Assembly (NCBI RefSeq): GCF_000337795.1
Contig: NZ_AOLP01000001.1
Coordinates: 62,001 to 126,000, forward strand
Reading direction: 5' to 3'
Length of the DNA stretch: 64,000 bases
Source of the DNA: Haloferax denitrificans ATCC 35960
Lineage (GTDB): Archaea > Halobacteriota > Halobacteria > Halobacteriales > Haloferacaceae
Below, in pieces: positions 43,383 through 64,000 of the stretch. How positions within the stretch are numbered: the stretch's first letter is position 1; the number at the start of each line of letters is the position of its first letter. A program made the position numbers and the translations under genes. The notes beneath the pieces are model-generated. The model was given only the letters and a program-made list of their open reading frames with translations, did no database searches and was not told the DNA's origin.

Positions 43383-43968
43383 GCAAACACTCCTTACGAC
43401 CGCAAGGACGGCCCTCACCTTCCGAGTCGGGGGACGCACACAGGCTTTGGGTGCCGACCACACGACCACCAGTCCCGCCTCGGCCCAACGAACGTCCCGA
43501 GGGTGACGACTGACCAGTCGAAGACGGTCAGGCCCGCGACCAGAAGGAAGACAGTACCAAGAAACAACAGGGTGGCACGTGTCGGAATCGCTCTGTCGGA
43601 GCGCCAGTGACATTGATCGTAGTCTAGTCAAGACACGCCTGGTCAGAGTTTCTTTCTACCCTACCGTACCGCAGATGTAGCGGTCCTAAGACGACATTTG
43701 TACGGTGGCAGAGTGTTTCCAAGTTTTGTGTTGATATTCTAGATGAGGGACAGCACTACAGAATAGTTGTGGGACTAGGAAACTATAAACACAGCTTTGG
43801 TTGTGGGGCAGTGAGATAGCGAATTTTGGAGTTTAATAGGTGTATGAGTAGTCTCACGAGGTAAAACAACTATCTATGAGTCTATGATTAATGAAACCGT
43901 GTCGAGTCGGGCGACAGGAAATTTAATGTTAGCAAAGACCTGTATAGTAGATGTCATAGCTGAGAGTA
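43383..43968. other. Transition region between the pilin and the glycan locus
   Basis: No supported gene. The first half is G+C-rich and contains, on the minus strand, a hydrophobic stretch without start codon (around 43440-43580) that may be a gene remnant. From about 43640 the sequence becomes A+T-rich and continues so into the glycosyltransferase block. Confidence 0.5.
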
Positions 43969-45147
43969 ATGTCACTGAACACATCTCAAATGGATCTGCT
44001 CGTTGTATCGCACTCATATGCAACATTTACCAAAGGCCAAATTGACGTTCTATCGGAACACTTTGACAGTATTACTGTTTTAGTTCGTTACAATCCCCTT
44101 GCTGAAATAAGCGAGTATCTCCCGATTTCAAGATTTGAACAGTTCACAAAGGATGCAAAAGTCAACCAGGCAGACATTCCTGAGAATGTGGGCGTACATC
44201 TTAGTCCAATTGTCTATCTACCAACTAGCAGGGGATATCGTCGCCTGGGAGATCGACATTATTCAAAGGTTAAAGACCAGATTGTAGCTGAGGATATAGA
44301 CTTTGACATAGTTCACGCTCACTTCGCATGGACGTCTGGCTACGTCGCCACCCAACTGTCTGAAGAATATGATGTCCCTTCAATTGTGACGATACATGCA
44401 AATCAGGATAGGCTCTCCCGAGAGATGGACTCGAAGGATAGTTTAGTTGAGGATGTTTGGAGAGATGCAGATGCACTGATCCGCGTCAACGAAAAAGACG
44501 TGCCTAAGCTGTCAAAATACAACCAAGATGTCCATTCAATCCCCAACGGGTATTCCCGCAGTCGATTCAGAGTACTGGATAAATCGGAGGCGAGAGAAAA
44601 CCTGGGTATCGATTCAGAGACACAGTTAGTATTCTCTCTTGGCCAATTAATCGAAAGAAAGGGATACAAGTACTTAGTTGAGGCAATCGACTCGGTTGAT
44701 GATGATCGAGACCTAATATGTGCGATTGGTGGCCATGGAAAACAGAAAAAAGAGTTAGAGAACAAAATCACATCGCTTGGTCTTAGCGACAAGGTACAAC
44801 TCCTCGGATACATTCCTGAAGAAAATCTTGATTTGTGGATGAATGCTTGTGATATATTCGTCTTGTCAAGCAAAGCCGAGGGCAACCCAACGGTGATGTT
44901 CGAAGCTCTTGGCTGTGGTAAACCGTATATTGGTTCCGCTGTTGGTGGGGTTGATGAAATAATAACAGAGGGAATTCATGGCTATACATGTGAACCAGAG
45001 AACATCAAAAAACTCACAGAATCCATTGAGCGAGGGCTATCAACGGATTGGGACCGGGAAATGATTCTAGAATACGGAAAGAACTTCACATGGGAGAAAA
45101 TCGTTGATAAGACCCTAAAGGTGTATGATAAAGCTTACGAGAGATAG
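43969..45147 (+). CDS. GT4-family glycosyltransferase
   Basis: A 392-residue GT-B enzyme of family GT4. The acceptor domain opens with MDLLVVSHSY, and DFDIVHAHFAWTSGY lies near 105. The donor domain contains FSLGQLIERKGYKYLVEA and the E-x7-E motif in EGNPTVMFEALGCGKPYIG (about 300). It should transfer a sugar from a nucleotide donor to a lipid-linked glycan at the inner membrane face. The DNA is clearly A+T-richer than neighbouring genes, with many A/T-ending codons. It begins a four-gene plus-strand block ending with a flippase. Confidence 0.93.
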   Translation: MSLNTSQMDLLVVSHSYATFTKGQIDVLSEHFDSITVLVRYNPLAEISEYLPISRFEQFTKDAKVNQADIPENVGVHLSPIVYLPTSRGYRRLGDRHYSKVKDQIVAEDIDFDIVHAHFAWTSGYVATQLSEEYDVPSIVTIHANQDRLSREMDSKDSLVEDVWRDADALIRVNEKDVPKLSKYNQDVHSIPNGYSRSRFRVLDKSEARENLGIDSETQLVFSLGQLIERKGYKYLVEAIDSVDDDRDLICAIGGHGKQKKELENKITSLGLSDKVQLLGYIPEENLDLWMNACDIFVLSSKAEGNPTVMFEALGCGKPYIGSAVGGVDEIITEGIHGYTCEPENIKKLTESIERGLSTDWDREMILEYGKNFTWEKIVDKTLKVYDKAYER

Positions 45148-45233
45148 TCTTGTAAGCAGATACATCATCAAAACCACATGGAATGCACCCGTTAAGAGGA
45201 TACGCCTGTGATTGAAAATTGAGAAAGATATAG

Positions 45234-47114
45234 ATGACTAAGCGAAATATCGAAGCCGTGTTTGATCGCTTACTCATAGTTCTACCGCCAATTGTTGCTA
45301 TTTCCTCAGTAGTCCTCTTATACTCTTTCCAAATGACAGATATGCTAGTTAATAGTTTCTATATCTCCATACCACTGTTATTAGCTCCACCCGTATATCT
45401 CGCTCTTCAAAAAAAAGATAATCAGCGCCCCAAAGAGATAATAAACAAAAAGCCAGCAATAGTCTTGTTTATTTTTCTCATTTCAGTCTCAACATTTGTC
45501 TCAGTGAGTGCAGTAGGACGGAGTATTTTGTTCTATGCGCCAGTATCTGCGGCGATATTGTTGGTTGTATTTCAAATAATATACCACGACTTCAATCAGA
45601 GATATTCATTCGTCGTCTTACTCCAGCAGAGCGCCATTATTCTATTGCTAGCGTGGAGTGTGAATATAGACCATGCGTTATATTTTGGAGGGACCGACCT
45701 CTTAGCTCACCGCTGGTATACACAATCACTTCTTAGTGCACACCACGTTAATGAAAACTTAGGTCAGTACTCTGGGTTCCCATTATTCCATATTTTGGTT
45801 AGTTCTCTCATCACAGTAATTAACTCTAACTCAATCATAGACATTATGTTCCTCGCATCAGGAATCATTTATATTAGTCTTCCATTGTCGGTTTTCTTAT
45901 TCTCTAGCAAATTCTTTGGCAAGAAAATATCCCTCTTGGCTTCACTGTGCTCAGTGCTGTTCCCGTTTTATATCTACTATGGGCAGTACGCAATCCCTCG
46001 AAGTATAATTCCAATATTCTTCATTCAGTCGATCTGGCTGTGGGAATCAAAAGAGAGGGACAAGCATCTTATTGGGTTATTGTATCTGGTCGCAATAACA
46101 CTGTTTCATGCTAGTAGCGGTCCGTTCATCCTAGTAACAATAGTAGGGTATATAGGGTTCAGACTCATTGATGTGAGAAGTCGAAATAGAGCAGCAGTTT
46201 CAGGGTACGCGGTTTATACTGCATCACTTTTGCTACTCGTAGTCACGCATTGGATATTTGTCGAAATAAGTCTCATAACATCAATCACCTCGCTACTTTC
46301 CACGGTCGGGGCAACGGGAAGTACTGGGCTATCATCACAGGCAACTAGTAGACTCAATCCGCTGAATAATTTTTACTGGGCGTTTTGGATCTTCTTTGGC
46401 TTGATTGGAACATATTTTGCTAGAGAGTATTCACAAAAAAAGTACGGGTGGCCTCTAGTACTATTCGGCGCATCGTTAATGGCTGTTGGAATACCAGGGC
46501 CACTCACTTCAATTGGGGTATTCGACAGCCTCAATTTTGACAGGTGGGGCCTTTATTCTGGAGTATTTATTGCAATTTCCACATCTGTTGGAATAATTGG
46601 AATGTTTAGAAAAACAGCCGGTGCAAAGCGAGCTCTCTTATTAGTTGGGATTGGGTTATTCATATTCTCCCAGATAGCCAATCCTCTAGTAGCATCAGGC
46701 GACCCCCTCTTCGGTGATCAAAAAGAGAAGCACTTCTCGAAGAGTGAATTGAATACGCTCAGATTTACTCTTACAAAAAGTTCAGATCCAGTCGTTGTTG
46801 ATTACCTTACGGGGAGGTATATCCGGTTCACAGAGTACAGTCAGAGGAGGTATCTATTACAAGTCGATGCAACCGATAGAGGTATCGTTTGTCCACCAAT
46901 GCAATCTAAGCTTGTGATTCGGTCTGAAGACCTGAAGACATCCGGTATTTCGGTCAGGCCATCAGTCACCGGCGAGTTTTCGTACACACGGGGTGGAACG
47001 ACATTTGCCAACTTTAATCCGGATATTTCTACATGGAATGAATTGGAGAAAAAGAGCAAGATATATACAACGGGGGCAACAGACGTATATCAAACCGGAG
47101 GTAGCCGTTGCTAA
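45234..47114 (+). CDS. Large multi-spanning membrane protein, GT-C-like
   Basis: A 626-residue protein with roughly 13-14 hydrophobic segments over residues 12-490 and an outer C-terminal domain of about 130 residues. The first large loop holds YFGGTDLLAHRWYTQ (near 150), reminiscent of the acidic loop of GT-C glycosyltransferases, and helix-flanking SGFPLFHI follows. Polyprenyl-phosphate-sugar-dependent transferases and O-antigen-type polymerases share this plan, so a role in adding the last sugar on the outer face, or in polymerisation, is plausible. It lies between two GT4 genes and ends three bases before the second. Composition is A+T-rich, suggesting transfer. The exact family is not recognised. 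Confidence 0.72.
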   Translation: MTKRNIEAVFDRLLIVLPPIVAISSVVLLYSFQMTDMLVNSFYISIPLLLAPPVYLALQKKDNQRPKEIINKKPAIVLFIFLISVSTFVSVSAVGRSILFYAPVSAAILLVVFQIIYHDFNQRYSFVVLLQQSAIILLLAWSVNIDHALYFGGTDLLAHRWYTQSLLSAHHVNENLGQYSGFPLFHILVSSLITVINSNSIIDIMFLASGIIYISLPLSVFLFSSKFFGKKISLLASLCSVLFPFYIYYGQYAIPRSIIPIFFIQSIWLWESKERDKHLIGLLYLVAITLFHASSGPFILVTIVGYIGFRLIDVRSRNRAAVSGYAVYTASLLLLVVTHWIFVEISLITSITSLLSTVGATGSTGLSSQATSRLNPLNNFYWAFWIFFGLIGTYFAREYSQKKYGWPLVLFGASLMAVGIPGPLTSIGVFDSLNFDRWGLYSGVFIAISTSVGIIGMFRKTAGAKRALLLVGIGLFIFSQIANPLVASGDPLFGDQKEKHFSKSELNTLRFTLTKSSDPVVVDYLTGRYIRFTEYSQRRYLLQVDATDRGIVCPPMQSKLVIRSEDLKTSGISVRPSVTGEFSYTRGGTTFANFNPDISTWNELEKKSKIYTTGATDVYQTGGSRC

Positions 47115-47117
47115 TTT

Positions 47118-48323
47118 ATGGATAATAGTGACAATAAGCAAAACAAAAGAATGCTGATGGTTTCTTCTTTAAATATAAAGCCATTTGGGAAGAAAGGAAG
47201 CACTCCAGCAATCGAAGAGGCTGTCCAGCAATACCATGAAAATGGGTGGAAGATTACGTTTATCGGAGGCTTCAACACGACTGATAAGGAGTTTGATTTC
47301 GACGTTAAAGCGTACGGACTTCCGCTTGGATGGTTTCGGGGGTTGAGTGCCTATGCGAGTATTGGATGGCTCATCCGAATCTGTTATTGGGTTCTGTTCC
47401 AGATTCTTGGTTCCGTTTTGATAGTTCGCTCATTGCATAAAGAAGAGATTGACCTGATATACAGTTGGGACGTCTATGCTGTCTCAATGTGCAAGCTATG
47501 GTCAGTCGTTTTCAATAAGCCTGTAGTATCCAGAATTCTCGGCACGTGGGATTACTATACTAAGTGTGACTCTATTTTCTGGCGGTTGTGGTACTGGCCG
47601 CTTACCGTCGGTTTGCAGGTTCCTGTTGACCTGATTATACCGACCAATGATGGCACCAGGACAGACAAGGTGCTTGACTACTTAGGTGTGAGTTCAAATC
47701 TGTTGTTCCTCCGGAATGGAATTGACAAAGACGCCTTTGTGGAGAGTATTCCAACCAGATCATATTCAAATAAGAAGGCGTTAGCGCTCTCTAGGCTTGA
47801 ATCTGGAAAAGGAATAGAATTGGCTATCAAAGCAATGCCAGAGGTATTAGAAGAACATCCAGAGGCAGAGCTGGTGATTGTCGGCGATGGGTCCCTCCGA
47901 GATGATCTTGAACGTCTTTGTCGCAAACTAGGTGTTAAGAGTCACGTTGATTTCAAGGGTCGCGTTCCGCATGATAGAGTCCAGGATTTCTATGCCAACT
48001 CGCAGGTCTTCTTATCACTTCAGCAAGTTTCCAACGTAGGGAATACACTGATTGAAGCCATGTACACTGCGTCTTGTATAATAACAATAAATAACGGTGG
48101 TACCGGGGAACTGATTTCAGATGACAAAAATGGGATGCTAATACCGACCCACGATATGCAGTTAAACCTCACCTCCAAAATCATTGAAGCACTACATACC
48201 CCATCGAAGTGCGCTGAATTAGGTGAAAATGCGTATCAATCTGCTCAAGAAGAGATACCAACCTGGGAAGAGCGAATGGATCAAGAGATAACCACTGTGA
48301 ATCAGATTGTCAATGAGAACTAA
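47118..48323 (+). CDS. GT4-family glycosyltransferase
   Basis: A 401-residue GT4 enzyme. The donor-binding half contains LALSRLESGKGIELAIKAMPEV (about 218), ELVIVGDGSLRDDLE (about 252), and VPHDRVQDFYANSQVFLSL. The usual second glutamate motif appears as QQVSNVGNTLIEAM, with the first Glu of E-x7-E replaced by Gln or Val. Residues 75-100 (IGWLIRICYWVLFQILGSVL) form a hydrophobic stretch likely to sit in the membrane surface. It begins three bases after the membrane protein and is translationally linked to it. A+T-rich composition matches the block. Confidence 0.9.
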   Translation: MDNSDNKQNKRMLMVSSLNIKPFGKKGSTPAIEEAVQQYHENGWKITFIGGFNTTDKEFDFDVKAYGLPLGWFRGLSAYASIGWLIRICYWVLFQILGSVLIVRSLHKEEIDLIYSWDVYAVSMCKLWSVVFNKPVVSRILGTWDYYTKCDSIFWRLWYWPLTVGLQVPVDLIIPTNDGTRTDKVLDYLGVSSNLLFLRNGIDKDAFVESIPTRSYSNKKALALSRLESGKGIELAIKAMPEVLEEHPEAELVIVGDGSLRDDLERLCRKLGVKSHVDFKGRVPHDRVQDFYANSQVFLSLQQVSNVGNTLIEAMYTASCIITINNGGTGELISDDKNGMLIPTHDMQLNLTSKIIEALHTPSKCAELGENAYQSAQEEIPTWEERMDQEITTVNQIVNEN

Positions 48324-48409
48324 GCTCAAGGAACAAGTGAGAACCCTTCTTCACGTAGTGCATGTGCGTGGATTGTTTTCGTGGCCTCACTGTATCATTC
48401 AAGCATTGA

Positions 48410-49867
48410 ATGAGTTCTAAAACAAGCTTATTCAGCCGAATACTGTCAATCTTGTCAGCCAATGTTGGCAAGATGATTGTGGGTATCTTGATGACTCCAA
48501 TTCTAGTTAGATACCTGGGAAGCGAGGGTTACGGAGAACTCTCGTTTCTCCTCTCAATCTATAGTTATCTTATACTTTTTTCTGGGTCAGGATTGGCGGC
48601 AAGTGTTCAAAAGCACATACCAGAGGCAAGAGATATTAAAAACTGGAAGGAGATGTTAGTCAAATACCACTTATTGACTTCCTTGAAAATAATTAGTACT
48701 TTTGTCATTTTCATACTACTTGTAACGTCAGTAGACCTAACACCACTGTTTGAAATAAAAGCAAGTTCACTATTGTGGCTTCTAATCGGGTACGTAGCCA
48801 TTGAGTCTCTTTTTCTCGTTACGAGGAGCTCAGTTATGGCCGTTGGAGCAGAGAAAGTGTCTGAACCCATATATGTATTTAGATACATATTATACTTCGT
48901 TCTCTGTATCGTATTTCTGAGTCGTGGGTTAGGGGTTGCCGCACCTCTACTCGCTCATATGCTCTCTATTTTGATCTCACTCACGCTACTCTTTGTTAAG
49001 TTCGACAGATACATTCCAGTACGCCGTATCTTGTTTTCGGACACTAAGGGACTCCCAACAGGTGAACTTGTGTCTTTCTCGTCGTCAAGTATATTTTTGT
49101 CATTTGCAATGATATCATTGTACAATACTGACCTTATAATTTTGAAAATAGTAGAAAATTCAACAACAGTTGGATATTATAAGTCAGCACTAGTGATTGT
49201 TGAATTCCTTTGGTTCATTCCGATAGCAATCCAAACTGCCTATCTACACTCTACATCTCAGCTCTGGTCAGAAAACAAAACTAAAGATTTAGAGCGAATT
49301 GCGTCAACGACAACACGGACCGTCCTATCTCTGAGTCTAGTGATGGCAGTCGGAATTATGTCACTTTCGGATCAATTTATCGGTCTATACTATGGGCTTG
49401 AATTCCTCAATGCAAAAACAGCGTTACTAATACTACTTCCTGGCGCAATCGGATTTGCAGTTGCTAGGCCGCTCTACGCCATCTGTTTAGCAGGGAACCA
49501 GACCAGGCACCTTCGATACTTTATCGGTGGTTGTGCTCTGCTAAATGGAGTACTAAATATAATACTCATACCTCAATATGGTATGGCAGGGGCGGCGGTG
49601 GCGACCAGTGCTACTTACGGACTCATGTTTGTACTTATGACAATGTCATTACGTTTAAATGGTGTCGAAGTGAAAAACCTAATGCTGGAATCACAGATAG
49701 TTGCGATTTTCATTACCACAGTAGTGATTTACGGGTTCAAGTCAATTCTCTCGTCCAACATCGCACAACTAATCATTATACCGCCAGTTGGGTTCGTGAT
49801 CCACACCACAATGTGCCACAGACTAGGGATTCTGGATGTGAAATCGATATACAAGAAGGTCACATAG
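48410..49867 (+). CDS. Wzx/MOP-superfamily polysaccharide flippase
   Basis: A 485-residue protein with about 14 hydrophobic segments and the N-terminal signature of Wzx/RfbX flippases (RYLGSEGYGELSFLLSIYSYL near 35). It should move a lipid-linked oligosaccharide across the cell membrane, the job done by Agl15 in the low-salt N-glycosylation pathway of Haloferax volcanii. The ATG at 48410 sits in A+T-rich sequence 86 bases after the glycosyltransferase. It ends the plus-strand A+T-rich block and is convergent with the minus-strand operon across 39 bases. Confidence 0.93.
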   Translation: MSSKTSLFSRILSILSANVGKMIVGILMTPILVRYLGSEGYGELSFLLSIYSYLILFSGSGLAASVQKHIPEARDIKNWKEMLVKYHLLTSLKIISTFVIFILLVTSVDLTPLFEIKASSLLWLLIGYVAIESLFLVTRSSVMAVGAEKVSEPIYVFRYILYFVLCIVFLSRGLGVAAPLLAHMLSILISLTLLFVKFDRYIPVRRILFSDTKGLPTGELVSFSSSSIFLSFAMISLYNTDLIILKIVENSTTVGYYKSALVIVEFLWFIPIAIQTAYLHSTSQLWSENKTKDLERIASTTTRTVLSLSLVMAVGIMSLSDQFIGLYYGLEFLNAKTALLILLPGAIGFAVARPLYAICLAGNQTRHLRYFIGGCALLNGVLNIILIPQYGMAGAAVATSATYGLMFVLMTMSLRLNGVEVKNLMLESQIVAIFITTVVIYGFKSILSSNIAQLIIIPPVGFVIHTTMCHRLGILDVKSIYKKVT

Positions 49868-49906: not shown

Positions 49907-50959
49907 TTAGACGTTCAATCGAAAGTCTCGACTATCACTGTTCAGCTTGTCAGCCAACTCCAGAACGTGTTCAGAAACATCGATTTTGTCGTCAAGCAAC
50001 GCCTTTCGTCTCGCGTTCCATGTGTCGTCGGACGTATCGAGCAGTCCCTCAATCACGCCCAGTAGCTCGTCGTACGCACAGTCCGGTGGAAGTTGCGAAC
50101 AAAGCTGGTACTCGTGTTCCACTTCGTCGAGGACGCCAGCCGAGAGCGACGAGACGAATATCGACGGCGTCCCGAGGACGGCACTTTCGATAGCCATCGT
50201 CCCACTCTCGCCTAAGAGCAAGTCAGCGTAGTATATCAGGTCGTGCATCTTGTGGACTGGAAGGTTCACACGGCAATGCTCGACACTCGAAGGCAGGTCC
50301 GCCTCCGATGTGATAAGAACACGAACACCCTGTGCTTCGAGGTCTGTGACCAGCTTGGCGACCCTATCCAACCCTTTGTTCCCGATGTCGTGGACAGCTT
50401 CCCAAGACACCAACCGAAGGATGACCGCTGTGTCGTCGGGGTCAAGACCGACCTTGTCGAGAACCGCTGGGTCCGGCGAAAATTCGTTCGGGTGGAGGTA
50501 CGATAGTTCGTGGAAGCCGGGATACCGAAGCTGTTTTTCGCCGAGGTCCTCGGTGTATGTTTCGGGAGTACAGACGTAATCTGCAAACGGGAACGTAATC
50601 GAGTTTTGGAGCGTGGCGTGTTCCGTGTCGGTGAAGACGATGCTCGTACCACCGACTAACGTTCCCGCATGTGCAATCGAGGGTTCGCCGATTGCGAGGA
50701 GTAAGTCGGGGCTGAACGTCCGCGCCTGCTGGATGATATGATACTCGTATTTGAGTTGGTTCAATAGCAGGCTGACCATCGACGTTGGCTTTTTTGCCAC
50801 TAAATCGTAGTCGAGTTCGTAGCTGTCGAGGAGGTCCTCGACGATATCTTTTCCCCGAGCCAAGATTCTCACGTCGTCACCATTCCGGTCGAGCTTCTCG
50901 ACAATCGGTCGGAAGAAGTGGACGTGTGCCGGATGTTGGATGGTGATGAGAACTTTCAT
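49907..50959 (-). CDS. DUF354 (COG1817) GT-B-fold glycosyltransferase-like protein
   Basis: A 350-residue protein with the DUF354 start KVLITIQHPAHVHFFRPIVEKL and later LLLAIGEPSIAHAG, IVFTDTEHA, and a C-terminal half with YYADLLLGESGTMAIESAVLGTPSIFVSS, which matches the donor-binding loop of UDP-GlcNAc 2-epimerase and MurG-like GT-B proteins. Two roles are possible: a glycosyltransferase, or a UDP-sugar 2-epimerase-like enzyme completing a 2,3-diamino-uronate pathway. Its ATG overlaps the stop of the GT2 gene by four bases. It is the last gene of the six-gene minus-strand operon. Confidence 0.85.
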   Translation of the reverse strand: MKVLITIQHPAHVHFFRPIVEKLDRNGDDVRILARGKDIVEDLLDSYELDYDLVAKKPTSMVSLLLNQLKYEYHIIQQARTFSPDLLLAIGEPSIAHAGTLVGGTSIVFTDTEHATLQNSITFPFADYVCTPETYTEDLGEKQLRYPGFHELSYLHPNEFSPDPAVLDKVGLDPDDTAVILRLVSWEAVHDIGNKGLDRVAKLVTDLEAQGVRVLITSEADLPSSVEHCRVNLPVHKMHDLIYYADLLLGESGTMAIESAVLGTPSIFVSSLSAGVLDEVEHEYQLCSQLPPDCAYDELLGVIEGLLDTSDDTWNARRKALLDDKIDVSEHVLELADKLNSDSRDFRLNV

Positions 50960-52011
50960 TCGCGGATTTGAATTTCCTTACTCTCGTTCACTCGCATATC
51001 GAACAGCATCGCGAACATCAAAAAGAGACTCCCGGTCATAAAGAGCATCAGGCTGATCGACCCGCGGAGGAAAAGCGAGTCGCCCCACGCGAGTTTAGCG
51101 TACACCGACCAGCCTGCACCGAGAAGGCTGACGAGCGTGGTCAGAGCCCCGAACACGTAGAACAACGCGAGCGGGTGGAAGTCCAGTATCAGGTACTTCA
51201 CCTTCAACCGCCACAGGAAGTTCGCAAGCAACATGCCGGAGACCTTGCGGATGTACGCGGAGTATTTGATACTGCTTTCTTCGTCGCCGTAGACGGCGGG
51301 CATCGCAACGTCGGCGATGCGCATCCCCTTCGCGTTCAGTTTGACGAGGAGGTCGTTACAGTAGCCGTAGTACTCGTACATGTTCTCGATTCCGACGTTC
51401 TCTAAGGCGTACTGTGAAATCGCGGTGTACCCATTTTGCGGGTCCATCATCTTCCAGTAGCCGCTTGCAACCTTCGTCAGGAACGTCAGGATGGAGTTGC
51501 CGAAAAATCGCCACTTCGACATCCCCTCGCGGAACTCCCGGTACAGGAGGCGATTGCCCTTCGTGTAGTCGGCGTCGCCCTCAATGATGGGGTCCAAGAA
51601 GCGGTCCAAGATGTCGGGGTCCATCTGGCCGTCGCCACCCATGACGGCGGTGATGTCCACCTCGTCTTCGAGTGCGCGACGGTAGCCGGTCTTGAGTGCC
51701 CCGCCGACGCCCCGGTTTTCCTCGTGTTGAATCGGGACGACGCGGTTCGCGAAGACAGTCCCACCGTCGCTGATCGGTTCGGGAGTCTCTTCTCGAAACG
51801 AGAACGTCTCGGAGTCGGGTTCGGTCTCGGGAGCCGAGTCGTTGACCTTCGCCGCGTATTCCTGAATCTCCGTCCACGTGTCGTCGGTCGAGCAGTCGTC
51901 GATGACGTACATGCGGTCGACGTAATCGGGCATCGTGTCGATGACCTCCCCCACGAATCCGGCCTCGTTGTAGGCGGGGACGACGACGCCGATGGTGTGG
52001 TCCCTATACAT
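50956..52011 (-). CDS. GT2-family glycosyltransferase with C-terminal membrane helices
   Basis: A 351-residue enzyme. The GT-A domain starts with VVVPAYNEAGFVGEVIDTMP and YVIDDCSTDDTW, and the metal-binding region is VMGGDGQMDPDIL (about 123). An acidic insert of about 30 residues (55-85) separates the first two motifs. Two membrane helices lie at about 280-340. The layout resembles dolichyl-phosphate-sugar synthases and other polyprenol GT2 enzymes that load sugars on lipid carriers. ATG 52011 is chosen because the GT2 motif starts seven residues later. It overlaps the dehydrogenase stop by eight bases and the DUF354 start by four. Confidence 0.93.
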   Translation of the reverse strand: MYRDHTIGVVVPAYNEAGFVGEVIDTMPDYVDRMYVIDDCSTDDTWTEIQEYAAKVNDSAPETEPDSETFSFREETPEPISDGGTVFANRVVPIQHEENRGVGGALKTGYRRALEDEVDITAVMGGDGQMDPDILDRFLDPIIEGDADYTKGNRLLYREFREGMSKWRFFGNSILTFLTKVASGYWKMMDPQNGYTAISQYALENVGIENMYEYYGYCNDLLVKLNAKGMRIADVAMPAVYGDEESSIKYSAYIRKVSGMLLANFLWRLKVKYLILDFHPLALFYVFGALTTLVSLLGAGWSVYAKLAWGDSLFLRGSISLMLFMTGSLFLMFAMLFDMRVNESKEIQIRE

Positions 52012-53377
52012 ATCCTCCTCCGATGGTGTAGACGCGGTGGTCAGTGTCCGAGAGGTCAAGCGTGTCGCGGCCGTCGATAACGACGAGTTGGCCGTCCGAC
52101 CGGGAGACATCGTCCCACCGAATCGTATCGAAGTCGTCGTGGTGAGTGACCATGACGACGGCGTCGAACGACCGGTCGTAAATTTCAGAGTGGTCGAGAC
52201 GCGTGAGGTCGAACGCGTCCGTCTCGTCCAACATCGGATCAACGCCGTAGACGTCCGCGCCGAGGTCGGAACTAATCGACGCGATGTCAAGGGCGGGCGA
52301 CGCTCGAATCTCCTCGACGCCGGGACGGTAGGTCAGTCCCAAAAGGAGCACGGACGCGTCTTCGAACGCCAGCCTCTCGGCGTCGAACTCTTCACGGAGT
52401 TTGTTCACGGTGAACTGCGGCATAGAGTCGTTGACTGCGCGCGCAGTTTCCAAAAGCGGTGTCTCCGTCTCGAACGGCTTGATGACGAAGTACGGATAAA
52501 ACGGGATGCAGTGACCGCCGACACCCGGGCCGGGGTCGTGGATGTTACAGAACGGTTGGGTGTTCGCAACTTCGATAGCCTCGTTCACGTCGATTCCGAG
52601 TTCGTCGGTCAGCGTTGCGAGTTCGTTTGCGAGGCCAATGTTCACGTCTCGGTACAGCCCTTCGAAGACTTTCACGGCCTCGGCAGTCGTCGCGTCCGAA
52701 ACTGGAAGGACGCCCTCGGCGTTGATTTCCTCGTAGATGAGCGTCGCGGCGCGCGTGCTCTCGTCGTCAATGCCACCGACGACCTTCGGATACGCACCGC
52801 GGATGTCTTCAAGCGCCCGCCCGCTTGACGTTCGTTCCGGACAGAACGCGAGACCGAACTCGCCGTGTTCGAGGGCGGAGTTGGCTTTGAGCGCCGCTCC
52901 GACACGTTGTTCCGTCGTCTGCGGCGGGACCGTACACTCGATGACGACGAGGTCGCCCGCCGACAGGCCGGTTGCGATGTCTTCGACCACTGCATCCAAG
53001 ATTGCGAGGTCTGGTTCGTGGTCGTCGGTGATCGGCGTCGGGACGATAACCACGTGCACGCTCGCTTGGGCAGCGGCGTCTCGCGGCTCGGTCGTCACGG
53101 TGAGCGCGTCATCGGCCACGAGGTCGGAGACGAGCGTTTCTAACCCCGGCTCGCGCTTAACGTGACAGCTGCCGTTGGAGATCGTCTCGACGACCTCAGG
53201 GTCAATATCTGCGCCGATGACGTTTCCGGTCGTCTCTGCGTAGACGGACGCGAGCGGCAGGCCCATCTTCCCCAATCCGTAGACGGCAACAGGTATCTCA
53301 CCATTCGTGAGGGCGTCGCGCTGTGCGGCTTCGTCGTGGTCTGAGTCGTAGATTCGGTCGATGAGTTTCGTGCTCAT
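52004..53377 (-). CDS. UDP-N-acetyl-hexosamine 6-dehydrogenase (WbpA/WecC type)
   Basis: A 457-residue member of the UDP-glucose/UDP-ManNAc dehydrogenase family. The Rossmann motif is VYGLGKMGLPLA (about 32), followed by GADID. VIECTVPPQTT (about 145), AFCPERTSSGRAL (about 177) and the catalytic loop GPGVGGHCIPFYP with Cys290 are all intact. The family oxidises C6 of UDP-sugars twice, giving a uronic acid. The VPTPI and CPER signatures fit the N-acetyl-hexosamine branch. With the following oxidoreductase, aminotransferase and acetyltransferase it matches the WbpA-B-E-D order, so UDP-GlcNAc is the likely substrate. Confidence 0.93.
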   Translation of the reverse strand: MSTKLIDRIYDSDHDEAAQRDALTNGEIPVAVYGLGKMGLPLASVYAETTGNVIGADIDPEVVETISNGSCHVKREPGLETLVSDLVADDALTVTTEPRDAAAQASVHVVIVPTPITDDHEPDLAILDAVVEDIATGLSAGDLVVIECTVPPQTTEQRVGAALKANSALEHGEFGLAFCPERTSSGRALEDIRGAYPKVVGGIDDESTRAATLIYEEINAEGVLPVSDATTAEAVKVFEGLYRDVNIGLANELATLTDELGIDVNEAIEVANTQPFCNIHDPGPGVGGHCIPFYPYFVIKPFETETPLLETARAVNDSMPQFTVNKLREEFDAERLAFEDASVLLLGLTYRPGVEEIRASPALDIASISSDLGADVYGVDPMLDETDAFDLTRLDHSEIYDRSFDAVVMVTHHDDFDTIRWDDVSRSDGQLVVIDGRDTLDLSDTDHRVYTIGGGYV

Positions 53378-54354
53378 TGTACTGCGTCGAATGTCAGTTG
53401 CTGTTCAGTCGCGGTGTCGTCTATCGTCCGTGCGAGTTCCAGCGCCGCAAGTCCGTCTTCGACGGTGACGACGGGTGTCGAGTTGGTTGCAACGGCATCG
53501 ACGAACGATTCGAGCTCGTTTTTCAGCGGTTCGCCGCGGTTGACCGTCGGGCGCTCGACGATACTTTCGTGACGGTATTTGATGTCGCCGTTGTTTTCGA
53601 TATACTCGGGGACCGACTGGCGGTGAATTTCTATCGACTGGTCCATGTAGTCCACCTCGACGACGCACTCTTCGGCGGTGACGACGAGTCGCCGCACCTT
53701 TCGCTGTGTCAGTCGGCTGGCCGTCAGATTCGCAATCGTGCCGGATTCGAATTTGATTGTCGCGGTCGCGTGGCGGTTGTCCCGCACGCCGGCGCTGTGA
53801 ACATCGACCGGGTCGGTATCAACGAGCGAGAGGACGATGTCAAGGTCGTGAATCATCAGGTCCAAGACGGCACTGTCGTCTATCGTCCGCTCCGGCGGCG
53901 GGCCGAGGCGCTCGGCCGTGATGCTCAGGACGTTCAGGCCGGGGATGATGTCGATGAGCGCCCGAATCGCGGGGTTGAATCGTTCGATGTGACCGACCTG
54001 AATCAGCGTGTCAGCCGCCTCGCGCGCCGAGAGCAACTCGTCTCCCTCCGAGCGGTCTTCGACGACCGGCTTTTCGATGAGCGGGGCGACGCCCGCGGAC
54101 AGGCACGCTTTGGCGGTCGAAAGGTGGTACTGCGTCGGAACGACGACGGAGACCGCGTTGGCGCGGTCGAGCAGGTCGTCAATGTCGAGCGCGTCGGTCT
54201 CGTGTTTGCTGGCCACCGTCTGGGCCAGTTCCGTATCGACATCCGAGACGCCGACGAGGTTCGCGTTCGAAAGTTCGCTGTATACGCGTGCGTGGTGGCG
54301 ACCCATCGAACCGACACCGATGACGCCAACGTCGAGTGGAGATTGCTTACTCAT
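53374..54354 (-). CDS. Gfo/Idh/MocA-family oxidoreductase (WbpB type)
   Basis: A 326-residue NAD-dependent oxidoreductase with the Rossmann motif GVIGVGSMGRHHARVY (residues 9-24), the conserved EKP (about 94) and DLMIHDLDIV (about 170) that carries the catalytic histidine of the family. In the bacterial pathway for 2,3-diacetamido uronates the corresponding enzyme oxidises C3 of UDP-GlcNAcA to the 3-keto sugar. Its gene overlaps the dehydrogenase by four bases and the aminotransferase by eight, placing it in the middle of the pathway operon. The specific reaction is inferred from this order. Confidence 0.92.
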   Translation of the reverse strand: MSKQSPLDVGVIGVGSMGRHHARVYSELSNANLVGVSDVDTELAQTVASKHETDALDIDDLLDRANAVSVVVPTQYHLSTAKACLSAGVAPLIEKPVVEDRSEGDELLSAREAADTLIQVGHIERFNPAIRALIDIIPGLNVLSITAERLGPPPERTIDDSAVLDLMIHDLDIVLSLVDTDPVDVHSAGVRDNRHATATIKFESGTIANLTASRLTQRKVRRLVVTAEECVVEVDYMDQSIEIHRQSVPEYIENNGDIKYRHESIVERPTVNRGEPLKNELESFVDAVATNSTPVVTVEDGLAALELARTIDDTATEQQLTFDAVQ

Positions 54355-55423
54355 AGCTGTGGACTGCGTCGATGATTTGGTCGAGGTCCGAGTCGTCGAG
54401 TTCAGGGTGAACGGGAAGCGACAGCACTTCGCTTGCGACCCGTTCGCCGACCGGAGCCGTGTGGTCGATATGTTCGTACACGGGCTGTTCGTGCATGCAC
54501 GTTGGGTAGTAGACGCCGGAGCCGACGTCGTGCGCTTCGAGATGTGATTTGAGTGCGTCGCGGTCGTCGGCGCGGACGGTGTACTGGTGGTAGACGTGCG
54601 TACTGCCGTCCGGTTCGACCGGAAGCGTCAGCGACGTTGATGACAGTCCTTCGGTCAGTCGCTCGGCGTTCGCCCGGCGCGCTTCGATGTACGACGGGAG
54701 GCGTTCCAGTTGCGCCCGTCCGATTGCGGCACCGATGCTGGTCAGCCGGAAGTTGTGGCCGACCTCGGAGTGGCCGTATTTCGCCGTCCGACCGTGGTTC
54801 ACGAACCGAGCGGTTCGGTCGGCGATGTCGGCGTTATCAGTAGTAACCATCCCACCCTCGCCAGTGGTCATATTCTTCGTCGGGTAAAACGAGAAGCAGC
54901 CGACATCGCCGATAGAGCCGACGCGGTCGCCGTCGTAGACCGCACCGTGGGCTTGGGCGGCGTCTTCGACGAGCGGAATGTCGTATTCGTTGGCCAGTTC
55001 GGACAGTCGGTCGAGGTCGCAAGGAAGTCCGTAGAGGTGAACCACGAGAATCGCGTCGATTTCGTCGCTCGACTCGCGGAGCACTGCTTCGGCGGCGTCC
55101 GGGTCGAGGTTGTAGGTCGCCGGGTCGATATCGGCGAAGACTGGCGTCCCGCCCGCCAGCCGAATCGCGTTGGCCGTGGCGATAAACGAAAACGGCGTCG
55201 TGAGAACCCGGTCACCGGGGCCAATGCCAACGCCTTTGAGCGCAGCGTGGAGCGCGGTTGTTCCGTTCGACGTCGCCACGGCTTCGTCGGTGCCGCAGTA
55301 GTCGGAAAACTCGTCTTCGAACGCCCGAACTTCGGGGCCATCTGCGAGCATCCCACTTTCCATCACGTCGAGGACGCGGTCTTTTTCTGCCTGTCCCATC
55401 TGTGGGTTTGCAATCGGGATCAT
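54347..55423 (-). CDS. DegT/DnrJ/EryC1-family sugar aminotransferase (WbpE type)
   Basis: A 358-residue PLP enzyme. [12 protein letters not shown] (51-62) binds the cofactor phosphate, [10 protein letters not shown] (151-160) gives the pyridine-nitrogen aspartate, and [16 protein letters not shown] places the Schiff-base Lys183. The family transaminates keto-sugar nucleotides using glutamate. Next to a Gfo/Idh dehydrogenase it most likely forms the 3-amino group of a UDP-2-acetamido-3-amino uronate. The gene overlaps its upstream neighbour by four bases. All catalytic residues are present. Confidence 0.94.
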
Positions 55424-56007
55424 CGAATCAGATTTGGTCCATCTAGCTTTGCTGGCAGTTCCTCGTGGCTGGTGGGGACGCCTACCGCGAGCGTGTGCGG
55501 CGGTACGTCGTGGGTGACGACCGCACCCGCCGCGACGAACGAGCCTTCTCCGACGGTCACACCAGGGAGGACCGTCGCGTTCGCCCCGATCGAGACATCG
55601 TCTTCGATTGTCGGACCATCCATATCGACCTCGGCCCGTACAGGAACGGGGTCGTTGGTGAAAACGGCATGCGGGCCGATGAAGACGTCATCGCCAATCG
55701 TAGTGTGCGTCGGAATGTATACGCCTGTCTGGAGGCTCACACCAGACCCGATTTCAACCCGGCCGTCGATGACAGTGTTCGTGCCGACGAGCACGTCATC
55801 ACCGATATCCGTCAATTCGCGGACGAGCGCGTTGTGGCCAGTACTGAACCGATCACCAATCACAACGTCATCGTAAACGATTGTGCCAGCTCGAATTGTA
55901 CATTCGTCGCCGATGACCGGCGGCTCTGTGTCGGAGTGGTAGGCGTGACCAACCGTGGCATTCGCTGCGATGTCACAACCGTTACCGACAATTGGAGCGA
56001 CAGTCAT
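55420..56007 (-). CDS. Left-handed beta-helix sugar N-acetyltransferase (WbpD type)
   Basis: A 195-residue hexapeptide-repeat protein. Repeats such as [21 protein letters not shown] and [27 protein letters not shown] build a left-handed beta-helix over most of the length, and the usual acetyltransferase ending [11 protein letters not shown] follows. It should acetylate the amino group introduced by the neighbouring aminotransferase using acetyl-CoA. It is the first gene of the operon. Its length is close to WbpD-like enzymes (about 190-200). An O-acetyltransferase role is the main alternative. Confidence 0.92.
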
Positions 56008-56265: not shown

Positions 56266-57429
56266 ATGAAGGCCGTGATTCTGGCCGCCGGAGAGGGAGT
56301 CCGGCTTGACCCACTTACAGCGACGCGACCCAAGGGAATGCTCCCTATCGGCGGGAAACCACTTTTACAACACATCATCGAATCGGTCGCGGCGACGGGA
56401 ATCAACGACATCGTCCTCGTCGTCGGCCACAAACGAGAGCGGATCCAGAGTCACTTTAAAAATGGTGGTGACTGGGGAGTCAACATCCAATACGTTGTCC
56501 AAGAAAATCCACGAGGGACCGGAGACGCACTCCTCGAAGCAGAACATGTCGTCAGCGGCGAATGCATCGTCATCAACGGAGATCGAATCGTCGAACCAGA
56601 CCTCATAAAACGACTGATTGAACGTCATCAAACGAACGGCCAAGCGTGTCTCGCAATCACCGAAGTTGAAGACCCGACCCAATACGGGGCGGTCATGATT
56701 GAGGGCAACCGTGTTATCGACATCAAAGAGAAACCGAAGGAACACGAGATCCAGTCGAATCTCGTCAACGTAGGGGTCTACGCGTTTGGCCCGGATATCT
56801 TCGCAGCCATCCGCCGAACTAACCACTACGGTGAGCTCAAACTGACTGACACGCTCAGAGAGTTCATTGACGACCACCTACTTCACGCGGTTCACTACGA
56901 CGGGATGTGGCTTGAACTCTCACGACCATGGGACCTCTTGTCCGTCAACAGTGGTATTCTCGCTCAAACCGACTCAGTAATCGCCGACCCAGCAGTTGTA
57001 AGCAAAGGCGCAACCCTCGGTGACCCTGTTGTCGTTGGCGAACACTCCCGTATCCAACCCGGTGCACGGATCTTTCGAGATGTCGTGATCGGGGACAACG
57101 TGACGATTGGCGCGAATACCGTCATTACGAATGCGATCATCTTCGAAGACGCGGTCATTGAACCCGGGTCAGTCATCTCTGACTGCATTATTGGTTCGGG
57201 AACGACCATCGGCCCGCTGAATTCGATCGAAGGTGGTCGAACTGATGTCCGCGTTGACGACGAACTGTATACAGATGTGAAATTCGGTGGTCTTGTCGGT
57301 GACAACGTTGAAACCGCTGGGAATGTGACAATCGAACCGGGGACGATTATCGGAAACAACGTCTCTGTCGAAAGTGGCTCAACACTAACTGGTCGCATTC
57401 CGGAGAACGCACACGTCTTCCGAGGGTAG
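56266..57429 (+). CDS. Bifunctional-type sugar-1-phosphate nucleotidylyltransferase with beta-helix domain
   Basis: A 387-residue protein. The nucleotidyltransferase domain (1-230) begins ILAAGEGVRLDPLTATRPKG and has INGDRIVEPDLI (about 103) for metal binding and IKEKPKEHE (about 150). A left-handed beta-helix (about 240-385) follows, with repeats like VVIGDNVTIGANTVI. It is homologous to the GlmU-like enzyme at 60611 and to AglF-type enzymes, which make UDP- or dTDP-sugars. Having two such genes beside GlmS and GlmM suggests one supplies UDP-GlcNAc and the other a different activated sugar. It is divergent from the six-gene operon. Confidence 0.92.
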   Translation: MKAVILAAGEGVRLDPLTATRPKGMLPIGGKPLLQHIIESVAATGINDIVLVVGHKRERIQSHFKNGGDWGVNIQYVVQENPRGTGDALLEAEHVVSGECIVINGDRIVEPDLIKRLIERHQTNGQACLAITEVEDPTQYGAVMIEGNRVIDIKEKPKEHEIQSNLVNVGVYAFGPDIFAAIRRTNHYGELKLTDTLREFIDDHLLHAVHYDGMWLELSRPWDLLSVNSGILAQTDSVIADPAVVSKGATLGDPVVVGEHSRIQPGARIFRDVVIGDNVTIGANTVITNAIIFEDAVIEPGSVISDCIIGSGTTIGPLNSIEGGRTDVRVDDELYTDVKFGGLVGDNVETAGNVTIEPGTIIGNNVSVESGSTLTGRIPENAHVFRG

Positions 57430-57627: not shown

Positions 57628-59427
57628 ATGTGCGGAATCACCGGCTACATCGGCGACAACGAGAGCGCATCAGTTCTCTCTGCAGGATTGAAGAATCTAG
57701 AATACCGTGGGTACGACTCCGCAGGGATTGCCCTCATTGGTGACGACGTCACCGTCCACAAACAAGAGGGGACGATTGATGGGTTGACGATCCCGTCGAA
57801 CGCAGACGCAACACACGGCATCGGTCACACTCGTTGGTCGACCCACGGCGAGCCGACTGACGCAAACGCCCACCCACATACCGATTGTAGTGGGGATGTT
57901 GCAGTCGTCCACAATGGAATTCTCGCCAACTACCACGAACTCAAAGAAGAACTCAATGGCCACATCTTCGAGAGTGAAACCGATACAGAAGTCATTCCAC
58001 ATCTCATCGAAGAGGCAATCGCTGATGGTGCAGATCTTCGTGCAGCGGTGATGCGAGCGCTTGACCGTCTCGAAGGCAGCTTCGCGATTGCTGCAACGCA
58101 CGCTGACTACGAAGGAATCGTCGCAGCACGCCAAGACAGTCCGCTCGTCATCGGACACGGCGACGAAGGGATGTACCTCGGAAGCGACGTCACGGCATTC
58201 GTCGAGTACACTCGCCAGGTATCGTTCCTCGAAGACGGCGACGTAGCCCATCTCTACGACGACGATATCGAGATCTTCAATGATGGCGAGCGCGTCACTC
58301 GTGAGGTCCAGACTGTTGACTGGGACGCATCTGCCGCTGGGAAAGCTGGTCATGACCACTACATGCACAAGGAGATTCATGAGCAGCCGACTGCGCTCCG
58401 GCAAGCAATTTCAGGTCGTGTCGATGATCTCGCTGGTAACGCATCGCTCAACATCGACCTCGACGACGGCTTTCTCCAGACGATTGATGAAATCCACATC
58501 GCTGCGTGCGGAACGTCGTACCACGCTGGTCTCTACGCAAAGGAATTGATCGAACCGCTGGTCGATATTTCGGTTCGTGTCGATCTTGCGAGTGAGTACG
58601 AGGTCTACGATGGCCACAACACCCAGGATACGCTTGTCGTCGCAGTCACGCAGTCTGGTGAGACAGCAGATACGCTCTCGGCAATTCGACGTGCAAAGGC
58701 ATCGGGAATGACGACGTTCGCGGTGACCAACACTGTCGGTAGTACGATTACCCGTGAAGTCGACGACTCGCTGTTTATCAAGGCTGGGCCGGAGATTGGT
58801 GTCGCAGCGACGAAGACGTTTGTCTCGCAAGTAACTGCACTCGCGTTGTTCGCAACGTATCTCGGCCGGCTCCGGGGGACGATTTCCGCCGATGAAGGCG
58901 CAGACATCCTCGAAGATATTCGGCAACTCCCGAGTGCTGTCCAGGCGATTCTCGATGAAGAAGCACAGATTCGGCGCTTGGCCGCACAGTACAGCGATAG
59001 TAAGGCGTTCTTCTTCATCGGCCGCGGACTTGCACAACCGGTCGCACTCGAGAGCGCCCTGAAACTCAAAGAGATCTCGTACGCCCACGCAGAGGGATTC
59101 GCTGCGGGTGAGTTGAAACACGGCCCGCTCGCACTCGTCACAGAAAATACGCCTGTCCTCGCGTTCTTGAACCAGAGTGCCGCTCCCGAGGAGACGCGGA
59201 ATAACGTCAAAGAAGTTGAATCTCGGGGTGCCCCCGTTATCGGTCTGGCGACCGACGGTGCTGACGAGTCGTTCTGCAAGCACACGATCGACATCCCTGA
59301 ACTGGGTCGACTCGAACCGCTTGTTGCGAATGTCGCACTCCAGCTGTTCGCCTATCACGTCGCCAACGAGATGGGTCGTCCAATCGACAAACCGCGGAAT
59401 TTGGCGAAATCGGTGACTGTGGGGTAG
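57628..59427 (+). CDS. glmS: Glutamine-fructose-6-phosphate aminotransferase
   Basis: A full-length 599-residue GlmS. The N-terminal glutaminase domain starts MCGITGYIG, with the nucleophilic Cys2 exposed after Met removal, and contains LEYRGYDSAGIA and GHTRWSTHG. Two SIS isomerase domains follow, marked by ACGTSYHAGLYAKE (about 295), VAVTQSGETADTL (about 345) and EISYAHAEGFAAGELKHGPLAL (about 488). The end NLAKSVTVG matches the family. It converts fructose-6-phosphate and glutamine to glucosamine-6-phosphate, the first step to UDP-GlcNAc. GlmM (62099) and the GlmU-like enzyme (60611) lie close by. Confidence 0.98.
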   Translation: MCGITGYIGDNESASVLSAGLKNLEYRGYDSAGIALIGDDVTVHKQEGTIDGLTIPSNADATHGIGHTRWSTHGEPTDANAHPHTDCSGDVAVVHNGILANYHELKEELNGHIFESETDTEVIPHLIEEAIADGADLRAAVMRALDRLEGSFAIAATHADYEGIVAARQDSPLVIGHGDEGMYLGSDVTAFVEYTRQVSFLEDGDVAHLYDDDIEIFNDGERVTREVQTVDWDASAAGKAGHDHYMHKEIHEQPTALRQAISGRVDDLAGNASLNIDLDDGFLQTIDEIHIAACGTSYHAGLYAKELIEPLVDISVRVDLASEYEVYDGHNTQDTLVVAVTQSGETADTLSAIRRAKASGMTTFAVTNTVGSTITREVDDSLFIKAGPEIGVAATKTFVSQVTALALFATYLGRLRGTISADEGADILEDIRQLPSAVQAILDEEAQIRRLAAQYSDSKAFFFIGRGLAQPVALESALKLKEISYAHAEGFAAGELKHGPLALVTENTPVLAFLNQSAAPEETRNNVKEVESRGAPVIGLATDGADESFCKHTIDIPELGRLEPLVANVALQLFAYHVANEMGRPIDKPRNLAKSVTVG

Positions 59428-60610: not shown

Positions 60611-61807
60611 ATGCAGACAATCCTCCTTGCCGCCGGCCAAGGAACGCGGATGCGTCCGCTAACTGAGCAGCGTGCCAAGCCGATGCTTCCTGTCGTCGAC
60701 AAGCCACTTGCAGCCCATACTGCAACGACAGCCGTCAACGCAGGCGCAAGCCGTCTCATCATCGTCGTCGGCTACGAATCCGAAGCCGTACGCGAGTACT
60801 TCGGAGACGAGTACGCTGGTGTTCCCGTCGACTACGCAGTCCAGTCCGAACAACGCGGAACTGCAGATGCAGTCCGAGCCGCCGAACCACAGCTTGACGA
60901 CGGGCCGTTTGCCGTCCTGAATGGTGACGCCCTCTACGATGAAGCCTCTCTCACACAGCTCTTCGAAAATGCACCCGCAGTCGGGTCGTATCGAGTCGAT
61001 GATCCCACGCAGTACGGCGTCCTCTACACCGACGAGGACGATACCCGCGCAACAGGTGTCATCGAAAAGCCGGCAGACCCACCATCGAACCTCATTAACA
61101 CGGGGGCGTACGTGTTCCCGGCTGCGGCCCAGTCATGGCTCGAAGTCGGCGAAAGTGAACGCGGCGAACTCGAACTCACGGACGTACTCGAACGTGCTTG
61201 TACTGAAACGACTGTCTCTGCGGTACCGTTCGAGCGCTGGTTAGACGTCGGCCGTCCGTGGGAGCTCCTCGAGGCAAACGAATGGAAACTTGAGGGAGTC
61301 AGCCGGTCGCTTGACGGCGAGATACATGAGGATGCCAACATTCGCGGAAATGTCGTCGTTGAGGAAGGGGCGACTGTCGACGCGGGCGTGGTAATCGAAG
61401 GCCCGGCGCTTATCCGCGAGGGTGCAACCGTTGGCCCGAACGCGTACGTCCGTGGGCACACGCTCATCGCTCGGAACGCAACAGTCGGCCATAGCGTCGA
61501 AGTCAAAAACAGTATTCTCATGGACGGGGCGACGGTTGGTCATCTCTCGTATGTCGGCGACAGTATTCTCGGTCGTGATGTGAATTTCGGCGCGAACACT
61601 ACAGTTGCGAACCTCCGTCACGACGACGAATCTGTGCGTGTCCAGGTCAAAGGTGAAGAGACGACAACCGGACGCCGAAAGTTCGGTGTCGTTTGCGGTG
61701 ATGATGTGAAGACGGGGATTCAAACCAGCTTGAACGTAGGCGTCAAGCTCGCGAGTGGTGCTCGAACGAAACCTGGTGAGGTTGTCTTAGAAGAGAACCG
61801 GAATTAA
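60611..61807 (+). CDS. glmU: GlmU-like bifunctional enzyme (glucosamine-1-phosphate acetyltransferase / UDP-GlcNAc pyrophosphorylase)
   Basis: A 398-residue two-domain protein. The N-terminal nucleotidyltransferase (1-225) has LLAAGQGTRMRPLTEQRAKP, LNGDALYDE (about 101) and VIEKPADPPSN (about 148). The C-terminal left-handed beta-helix (about 240-395) has repeats such as NATVGHSVEVKNSIL and VNFGANTTVANLRHD, then RRKFGVVCGDDVKTGIQTSLNVG, which matches the archaeal ST0452-type acetyltransferase site. It should acetylate glucosamine-1-phosphate and uridylylate the product to UDP-GlcNAc. Placed with GlmS and GlmM it completes this pathway. It has its own upstream gap of 119 bases. Confidence 0.92.
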   Translation: MQTILLAAGQGTRMRPLTEQRAKPMLPVVDKPLAAHTATTAVNAGASRLIIVVGYESEAVREYFGDEYAGVPVDYAVQSEQRGTADAVRAAEPQLDDGPFAVLNGDALYDEASLTQLFENAPAVGSYRVDDPTQYGVLYTDEDDTRATGVIEKPADPPSNLINTGAYVFPAAAQSWLEVGESERGELELTDVLERACTETTVSAVPFERWLDVGRPWELLEANEWKLEGVSRSLDGEIHEDANIRGNVVVEEGATVDAGVVIEGPALIREGATVGPNAYVRGHTLIARNATVGHSVEVKNSILMDGATVGHLSYVGDSILGRDVNFGANTTVANLRHDDESVRVQVKGEETTTGRRKFGVVCGDDVKTGIQTSLNVGVKLASGARTKPGEVVLEENRN

Positions 61808-63424: not shown

Positions 63425-63563
63425 ACAGACAGATTCACATATTTCGCAATGAACGCTTCGTCTCTCAGATCATGTTCATTTTAATAACTAGGTTGTGACT
63501 GAGAATGTAGGATCATTCGGTGCGTTCAAGTTGATGTCATTGAATGTGTGTGCAAACCAGAAC

Positions 63564-64000
63564 ATGAACCTCACCTTCGTCTCGAACGTCGTTTATCCCT
63601 ACATCACTGGTGGCGCAGAAAAGCGTATTCACGAAATCGCCACCCGACTCTCACAGAACGGCCACGACGTGACCATCTACGGCCGCCACTTCTGGGACGG
63701 CCCGAAAGAGACGACCCACGAGGGCGTCACCCTCCGTGCAGTCGCCCCCGAAACAGAACTCTACACCGACGACCGTCGCTCGATCACCGAAGCGCTCGAT
63801 TTCGCCGCCCGTCTCGCCTACCCACTCGCCAAACGACTCCACAACGAGAATCACGACCTCGTCGTCGCCTCCGTCTTTCCGTACTTCCCTGTGCTCTCCT
63901 CGAAGCTCGCCGCCCTCGGGACCGACGTGCCCGTCGTCACGACCTGGCACGAAGTGTGGGGCGACTACTGGGACGACTACCTCGGCGTGCTCGCCCCCTT
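63564..64000 (+). CDS. GT4-family glycosyltransferase (3' truncated by window edge)
   Basis: The first 145 residues of a GT4-like protein. It starts MNLTFVSNVVYPYITGGAEKRIHEIA, the acceptor-domain opening typical of GT4 enzymes (the GGAE-x-H loop), then LAYPLAKRLHNENHDLVVASVFPYFPVLSS and VVTTWHEVWGDYW. The donor domain lies beyond the window. ATG 63564 is supported by the motif only a few residues later. It is divergent from glmM and extends the surface-glycan locus to the right. G+C-rich composition resembles native genes rather than the A+T-rich block. Confidence 0.9.
   Translation, partial: MNLTFVSNVVYPYITGGAEKRIHEIATRLSQNGHDVTIYGRHFWDGPKETTHEGVTLRAVAPETELYTDDRRSITEALDFAARLAYPLAKRLHNENHDLVVASVFPYFPVLSSKLAALGTDVPVVTTWHEVWGDYWDDYLGVLAP

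Follow-up and report, generated by a model that had tools for sequence, protein, structure and literature searches.

In bacterial O-antigen (wzx/wzy) clusters, an AT-rich assembly core of flippase, polytopic enzyme and glycosyltransferases lies between conserved flanks, and why surface-glycan loci stay AT-rich is an old question. Among haloarchaea, the closest described system is the alternative N-glycosylation cluster (agl5-agl15) linked to pilA2, which the available part of Shalev et al. 2018 (PMC5867893) presents as low in G+C, highly variable and near Orc1/Cdc6, with agl6 missing from isolates 24N and 47N. In H. volcanii, this cluster builds an N-linked tetrasaccharide, with Agl15 as the flippase (PMC3871713). 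Haloferax denitrificans ATCC 35960 is itself among the genomes of Shalev et al., and its locus may, as far as the accessible part of that paper goes, already stand in Figure 5 (PMC5867893). Here, we describe this locus in a window of 64,000 nucleotides, the whole stretch of DNA analysed, from a genome of 3,825,973 bp in 21 contigs.

Like agl5-agl15, as portrayed in the part of PMC5867893 at hand, our locus sits beside pilA2, carries a flippase and glycosyltransferases, has a G+C content far below that of the genome, varies between strains and lies close to Orc1/Cdc6; it differs in having wbp-like and glm genes in place of agl6 and rmlABCD, and its assembly proteins are not orthologous. The region LVR2 of Haloferax gibbonsii LR2-5 likewise combines pilA2, a glycosylation cluster and orc genes, and variable regions there tend to low GC, but it was handled as one 195-kb region and has other gene content (PMC7921747). 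The cell-wall replacement flexible genomic island of Haloquadratum walsbyi also has surface genes at a fixed site diversified by homologous recombination, in a different host and with different genes, and there mobile elements and viruses contribute too (PMC4535781). With the O-antigen clusters our block shares the core plan between conserved flanks, but a dolichol carrier is expected here, there is no lipid A core and the polymerase is only putative. The locus is thus a well-resolved example of a phenomenon already described, comparable to bacterial O-antigen switching; new, and absent from the available portion of the text of PMC5867893, are a nested exchange with mapped breakpoints, a swap that seems to reach into the pilin, a recent operon transfer and a GT-C family without a Pfam model. 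The AT-rich block is very probably a replaceable assembly module of the pilA2-linked surface-glycan locus, swapped by homologous recombination.

An AT-rich block inside a larger variable cassette

The block (43,640–49,950) has 42% G+C, and its 6-kb value of 0.424 is the lowest in the 168 kb of the same contig that served, in overlapping 6-kb windows, as composition background; the 300 windows outside the block average 0.607 (sd 0.047, minimum 0.516). Across the four genes of the block, GC is 0.41–0.44 and GC3 0.41–0.47; the 57 surrounding ORFs of at least 150 aa average 0.72 in GC3 (sd 0.11), and a single one of them, at 69871 and outside the window, falls below 0.55. The sharp shift to A/T with A/T-ending codons claimed in the initial annotation is therefore borne out, and its left start, given as about 43640, proves exact, being the point where a gene remnant homologous to another Haloferax genome (G010) ends. 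The right end, given as about 49870, was close, but the edge itself lies inside the next gene, at 49,945–49,951 (about 49,950) and 12–14 codons into the DUF354 frame (Table 1). Three of the four genes are recognized by Pfam (Glycos_transf_1/Glyco_transf_4 at 43969, Glycos_transf_1 at 47118 and Polysacc_synt/MatE/MurJ at 48410), in agreement with the proposed order of GT4, GT-C-like membrane protein, GT4 and flippase; the 626-aa protein at 45234 has no Pfam match and owes its GT-C assignment to a predicted fold.

Table 1. Features of the pilA2-linked locus, in window coordinates
Feature	Position	Strand	Basis and remarks
PilA2-kind type IV pilin, 145 aa	42945..43382	+	Alignment; exposed C-terminal part variable
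Remnant of 215 bp, 5' end of a 433-aa membrane-protein gene adjoining the G010 cassette	43421..43635	-	DNA match; 86%, frameshifted
GT4 glycosyltransferase, GC 0.43	43969..45147	+	Pfam; about 42–43% identical to GT4 of G010 cassette
626-aa polytopic protein, predicted GT-C fold	45234..47114	+	Predicted structure; G-x-T-D-x3-H loop; family without Pfam model
GT4 glycosyltransferase, GC 0.44	47118..48323	+	Pfam
Polysacc_synt flippase (Wzx/Agl15-like), GC 0.41	48410..49867	+	Pfam; best relative 39%
DUF354 protein (UDP-sugar epimerase/GT-B-like)	49907..50959	-	Pfam; carries right breakpoint near 49,950
GT2 with C-terminal TM segments, weakly AglJ-like	50956..52011	-	66 bits (family cut-off 325); start placed at internal ATG
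Nucleotide-sugar dehydrogenase, WbpA-like	52004..53377	-	Exceeds TIGR03026 cut-off
Gfo/Idh oxidoreductase, WbpB-like	53374..54354	-	Best NCBIfam match archaeal UDP-GlcNAc 3-dehydrogenase, under cut-off
DegT/DnrJ aminotransferase, WbpE-like	54347..55423	-	Family match
Hexapeptide acetyltransferase, WbpD-like	55420..56007	-	Family match
Archaeal GlmU-type nucleotidylyltransferase	56266..57429	+	Exceeds TIGR03992 cut-off
GlmS-like glutamine:fructose-6-P aminotransferase	57628..59427	+	Name from sequence
Second GlmU-like nucleotidylyltransferase	60611..61807	+	30% identical to protein at 56266
GlmM-like phosphohexomutase	62099..63424	-	Name from sequence
GT4, running on to 64712 past the window	63495..64000	+	90% identical to GT4 of G008 pilA2 cassette

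The block is nested in a larger variable region. A genome of the same species (G001) is collinear with ours up to 43,113, inside the pilin gene, and shows no homology by blastn from there to 70,740, which delimits a variable cassette of about 27.6 kb ending beyond the window. The left flank is conserved, as the initial annotation had it, but the operon at 49,907 and the glm genes, which it had counted with the conserved flanks, belong to the variable region that extends to about 70,740; the operon as right limit of variability is ruled out, since homology to G001 resumes only there. Homology also stops at 43113 in G009, whose agl6–rml–flippase gene order marks it as probable H. volcanii. Different cassettes occupy the same place in G001 (17 kb) and G009 (24 kb), and in G003, G008, G011 and G014 the pilin is followed by further unrelated gene sets. 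No two of these cassettes are alike, yet every one encodes a flippase and one or more additional polytopic proteins. The locus of G013, a contig fragment with several pilins, was left out of this reading. Conservation of the block in close relatives, which would have spoken against transfer, is not seen: G001 and 13 other Haloferax genomes have collinear flanks and no orthologues of it. The G+C content of the assembly block is nonetheless 0.416–0.450 in all eight Haloferax blocks examined, with unrelated genes.

Gene content at the pilA2-linked locus thus differs between close relatives, with several glycosyltransferases and a flippase present, and gene sets of like function differ at one site in conspecific genomes, as in a replacement island. 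An agl6-family GT2 stands in the agl6 position in G001, G009, G003, G011, G014 and G008, but no agl6 homologue lies beside our pilin, and rmlABCD (agl11-14) are likewise missing from our locus, which has the wbp-like and glm genes instead. The GT2 of the downstream operon is a candidate for the dolichol-carrier charging enzyme replacing the missing Agl6. Apart from the dehydrogenase and GlmU, the family matches of the operon enzymes fall under the equivalog cut-offs.

Some further features of these cassettes may be recorded here. One to several proteins like the sulfatase/alkaline-phosphatase superfamily, named from sequence, occur in the cassettes of G001, G003, G008, G009, G011 and G014 (L013-L014, L052-L055, L018, L058, L059), and none in the cassette of the window. 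A pair of genes for small membrane proteins is present in two copies, at 59498-60491 and, beyond the window, at 64783-65806 in window coordinates, with 52% and 73% identity between the copies; they flank the GlmU/GlmM/GT4 genes, and similar pairs lie near glmS in G010, G007, G005, G012, G002 and G004. An Orc1/Cdc6-like gene, so named from its sequence, is located at 67479-68708, also beyond the window and close to where the variable region ends on the right.

Breakpoints, route of exchange and source of the block

The sharpest view of the exchange comes from G010, a genome from a distant Haloferax branch (92.8% identity at the rpo locus) with a cassette of the same plan and no pilA2-type pilin in the 40 kb around it. 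Two stretches match it: the 215-bp remnant, at 86%, whose source gene directly adjoins the G010 cassette, and the operon from 49,951 to 55,900, whose DNA is about 93.5% identical. Followed in 25-bp steps, the match breaks off abruptly at both edges, with identity going from 0.80 to 0.36 at 43,636 and from 0.92 to 0.36 at 49,951. No DNA homology to G010 is found between these two edges, although G010 encodes proteins of the same kinds, which are 43% (GT4), 28% (GT-C) and 24% (flippase) identical to ours. As 93.5% identity directly beside zero DNA homology is impossible by common descent, one of the two blocks has been exchanged, and the comparison shows that, relative to an otherwise matching G010-like cassette, this block alone was replaced between matching edges. 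The same pattern would result from a later swap in the lineage of G010, and G010 is a relative of one contributor, not the donor.

The operon itself has also moved, and recently. Divergence from G010 at four-fold sites is 0.12–0.22 in five of its six genes and 0.28 in the acetyltransferase, compared with 0.22–0.31 in the rpo genes (taken as frames of 635, 498 and 489 aa; the remaining long frames are wrong-frame ORFs) and 0.46–0.53 in glmU and glmS, so that the operon was transferred between the species after their split and vertical inheritance is ruled out.

In the outer flanks, identity to G001 behaves as homologous recombination predicts. Away from the locus it is mostly 96–99%, and in the flanks mostly 88–99%; between 40 and 43 kb it drops to 0.88 and then 0.80, and on the right it forms a patchwork between 71 and 116 kb before returning to about 96–97%, so that divergence rises toward the cassette from 1-4% to 12-20%. 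The pilin gene appears to carry the outer left breakpoint. Its first ~56 residues are nearly invariant across the genus, and the whole protein is 66–68% identical to those of G003, G008, G011 and G014 versus 62% to its conspecific counterpart in G001; the difference sits in the C-terminal part, which ends TLQ-x-WTYNG in the other species and TLHSQTAPQ in G001. An invariant start joined to a C-terminal part resembling other species places the breakpoint most likely inside this gene, in which case the exposed pilin part would change together with the cassette. Divergence gradient and breakpoints together lend indirect support to exchange by homologous recombination in the flanks, and the initial proposal of an O-antigen-like cassette swap in conserved flanks is supported by the lack of conservation, by the gradient and by the G010 edges. 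We would refine it to a nested exchange within a cassette of ~27 kb, with an outer left breakpoint inside the pilin and a recently transferred wbp-like operon.

Elsewhere in the window, identity to the same-species genome dips a second time at 22000-33000, to 83-93%, over a likely S-layer glycoprotein gene with a PGF-type C-terminal anchor (28207-30873, minus strand, named from sequence); an island at 33-37 kb that is 97-99% identical separates this dip from the cassette.

Searches for a source of the block found no donor, the nearest relatives of the four proteins being 28–42% identical. For the second GT4 (47118), none of 292 other Halobacteriales genomes yields a relative at E<=1e-30; the best relative of the flippase (48410) is 39% identical and a scan of the genome contigs with it found none; relatives of the GT-C protein are scattered over 34 of 293 genomes and 22 of 87 genera, the best of them, at 29%, coming from another family. 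It might be held that nothing was exchanged, and that membrane-rich glycan-assembly genes are AT-rich for reasons of function or expression and were simply retained in the lineage, and the G+C content of the eight Haloferax blocks is indeed oddly uniform for random imports of unrelated genes. This reading is hardly credible: the conspecific genome lacks the block, contradicting retention in the lineage, the soluble GT4 genes are as AT-rich as the membrane genes, and members of the same GT-C family elsewhere span GC values of 0.31–0.74, mostly like their hosts, so that the proteins themselves do not dictate AT-richness and an intrinsic bias of the families is ruled out. The 42–45% shared by the Haloferax blocks is most simply read as steady import from a pool of AT-rich DNA, and selection for low GC may be another reading. 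Arrival by a mobile element, whether plasmid, integrase island or IS pair, is in turn very unlikely. An Orc1/Cdc6-like gene does lie close to the outer right border (67.5-68.7 kb), as the available part of Shalev 2018 (PMC5867893) reports by such clusters, and related flippases at 32-36% identity occur on haloarchaeal plasmids, but the block borders have no terminal or IS-like repeats and no tRNA and its ORFs include no integrase or transposase gene, as the initial annotation had noticed for integrase, tRNA and IS borders, and the breakpoints fall within shared coding DNA flanked by a divergence gradient. Homologous recombination remains the reading we prefer.

The 626-aa protein and the proposed pathway

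An AlphaFold model of the protein at 45234, built from an alignment of 24 relatives, has a pTM of 0.83, and its fold matches in the PDB at E <0.001 are all GT-C enzymes or complexes containing them. STT3/PglB rank first (E about 1e-4, TM 0.41–0.49) and AftA next, with archaeal AglB, ALG9 and ArnT at weaker E-values; searching the PDB sequences with the GT-C profile gave no hit. The protein is accordingly predicted to belong to the GT-C superfamily, with a GT-C transmembrane fold and an acidic residue in an outer loop, where D155 and H159 are invariant and G-x-T-D-x3-H occurs in nearly all members. While STT3/PglB/AglB are the closest of the solved structures, the TM-scores stay below 0.5, the C-terminal domain is short, the WWDYG motif of STT3/AglB is absent (the genome's own AglB, at C18, has it) and ArnT, AftA and ALG9 match too. 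When profiles are compared, polytopic proteins from the G001, G003 and G008 cassettes emerge as remote relatives (99.5, 98.3 and 97.4% probability) and G009/G011 give a partial match (82%); G014 gives no match, and neither do two unrelated membrane proteins that served as controls. Family members occur in haloarchaea, methanogens, Clostridia and an Anaerolineaceae MAG (L109-L135). Bearing on whether it is a Wzy-type polymerase are the lack of a Pfam hit and the predicted GT-C fold.

Judged by gene families, the block most likely serves as assembly module in a second, agl15-like pathway for a lipid-linked surface glycan. GlmS-, GlmU- and GlmM-like enzymes and the WbpA/B/E/D-like enzymes would supply UDP-GlcNAc and, from there on, a diacetamido-uronic-acid nucleotide sugar; the AglJ-like GT2 would load dolichol phosphate with the first sugar, both GT4s would extend the chain and the flippase would turn the lipid-linked glycan outward. 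The GT-C-fold protein might add a carrier-borne sugar or polymerize or transfer the glycan, and attachment to surface proteins would fall to it or to AglB, whose gene is present elsewhere in the genome (C18). The initial description of the genes as 'polymer assembly' infers more than this, and the product may be an oligosaccharide for N-glycosylation. That the locus makes an exopolysaccharide or capsule-like polymer and no N-glycan is a doubtful alternative: a flippase beside a GT-C-fold polytopic protein without the STT3 motif recalls Wzx/Wzy loci, yet the equivalent agl5-agl15 locus of H. volcanii builds an N-linked glycan (PMC3871713), an AglJ-like GT2 is present and no chain-length or export genes were seen.

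Exchange and its consequences

Cell fusion is known in Haloferax, and cassette replacement would probably follow it, by homologous recombination in shared DNA, namely the conserved 5' half of the pilin gene, the operon end that carries DUF354 and the region near 70.7 kb; pressure from viruses and mating could keep the cassettes diverse. A further and unlikely possibility is that such loci consist of separately exchangeable layers, the AT-rich core (kept at ~42-45% G+C regardless of gene content) swapping alone while the sugar-nucleotide operon stays, with the fast-evolving GT-C protein as a dedicated ligase or polymerase of the second pathway.

For archaeal surface-glycan switching, the comparison provides breakpoints near base level. 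The uniform G+C content of blocks with unrelated genes gives the question of AT-rich loci a concrete form, and the GT-C family without a Pfam model becomes a testable candidate for an unassigned step in the second glycosylation pathway of Haloferax. The swap is also suggested to bring the exposed pilin half with it, in which case a single event would alter both the pilus surface and the sugar coat.
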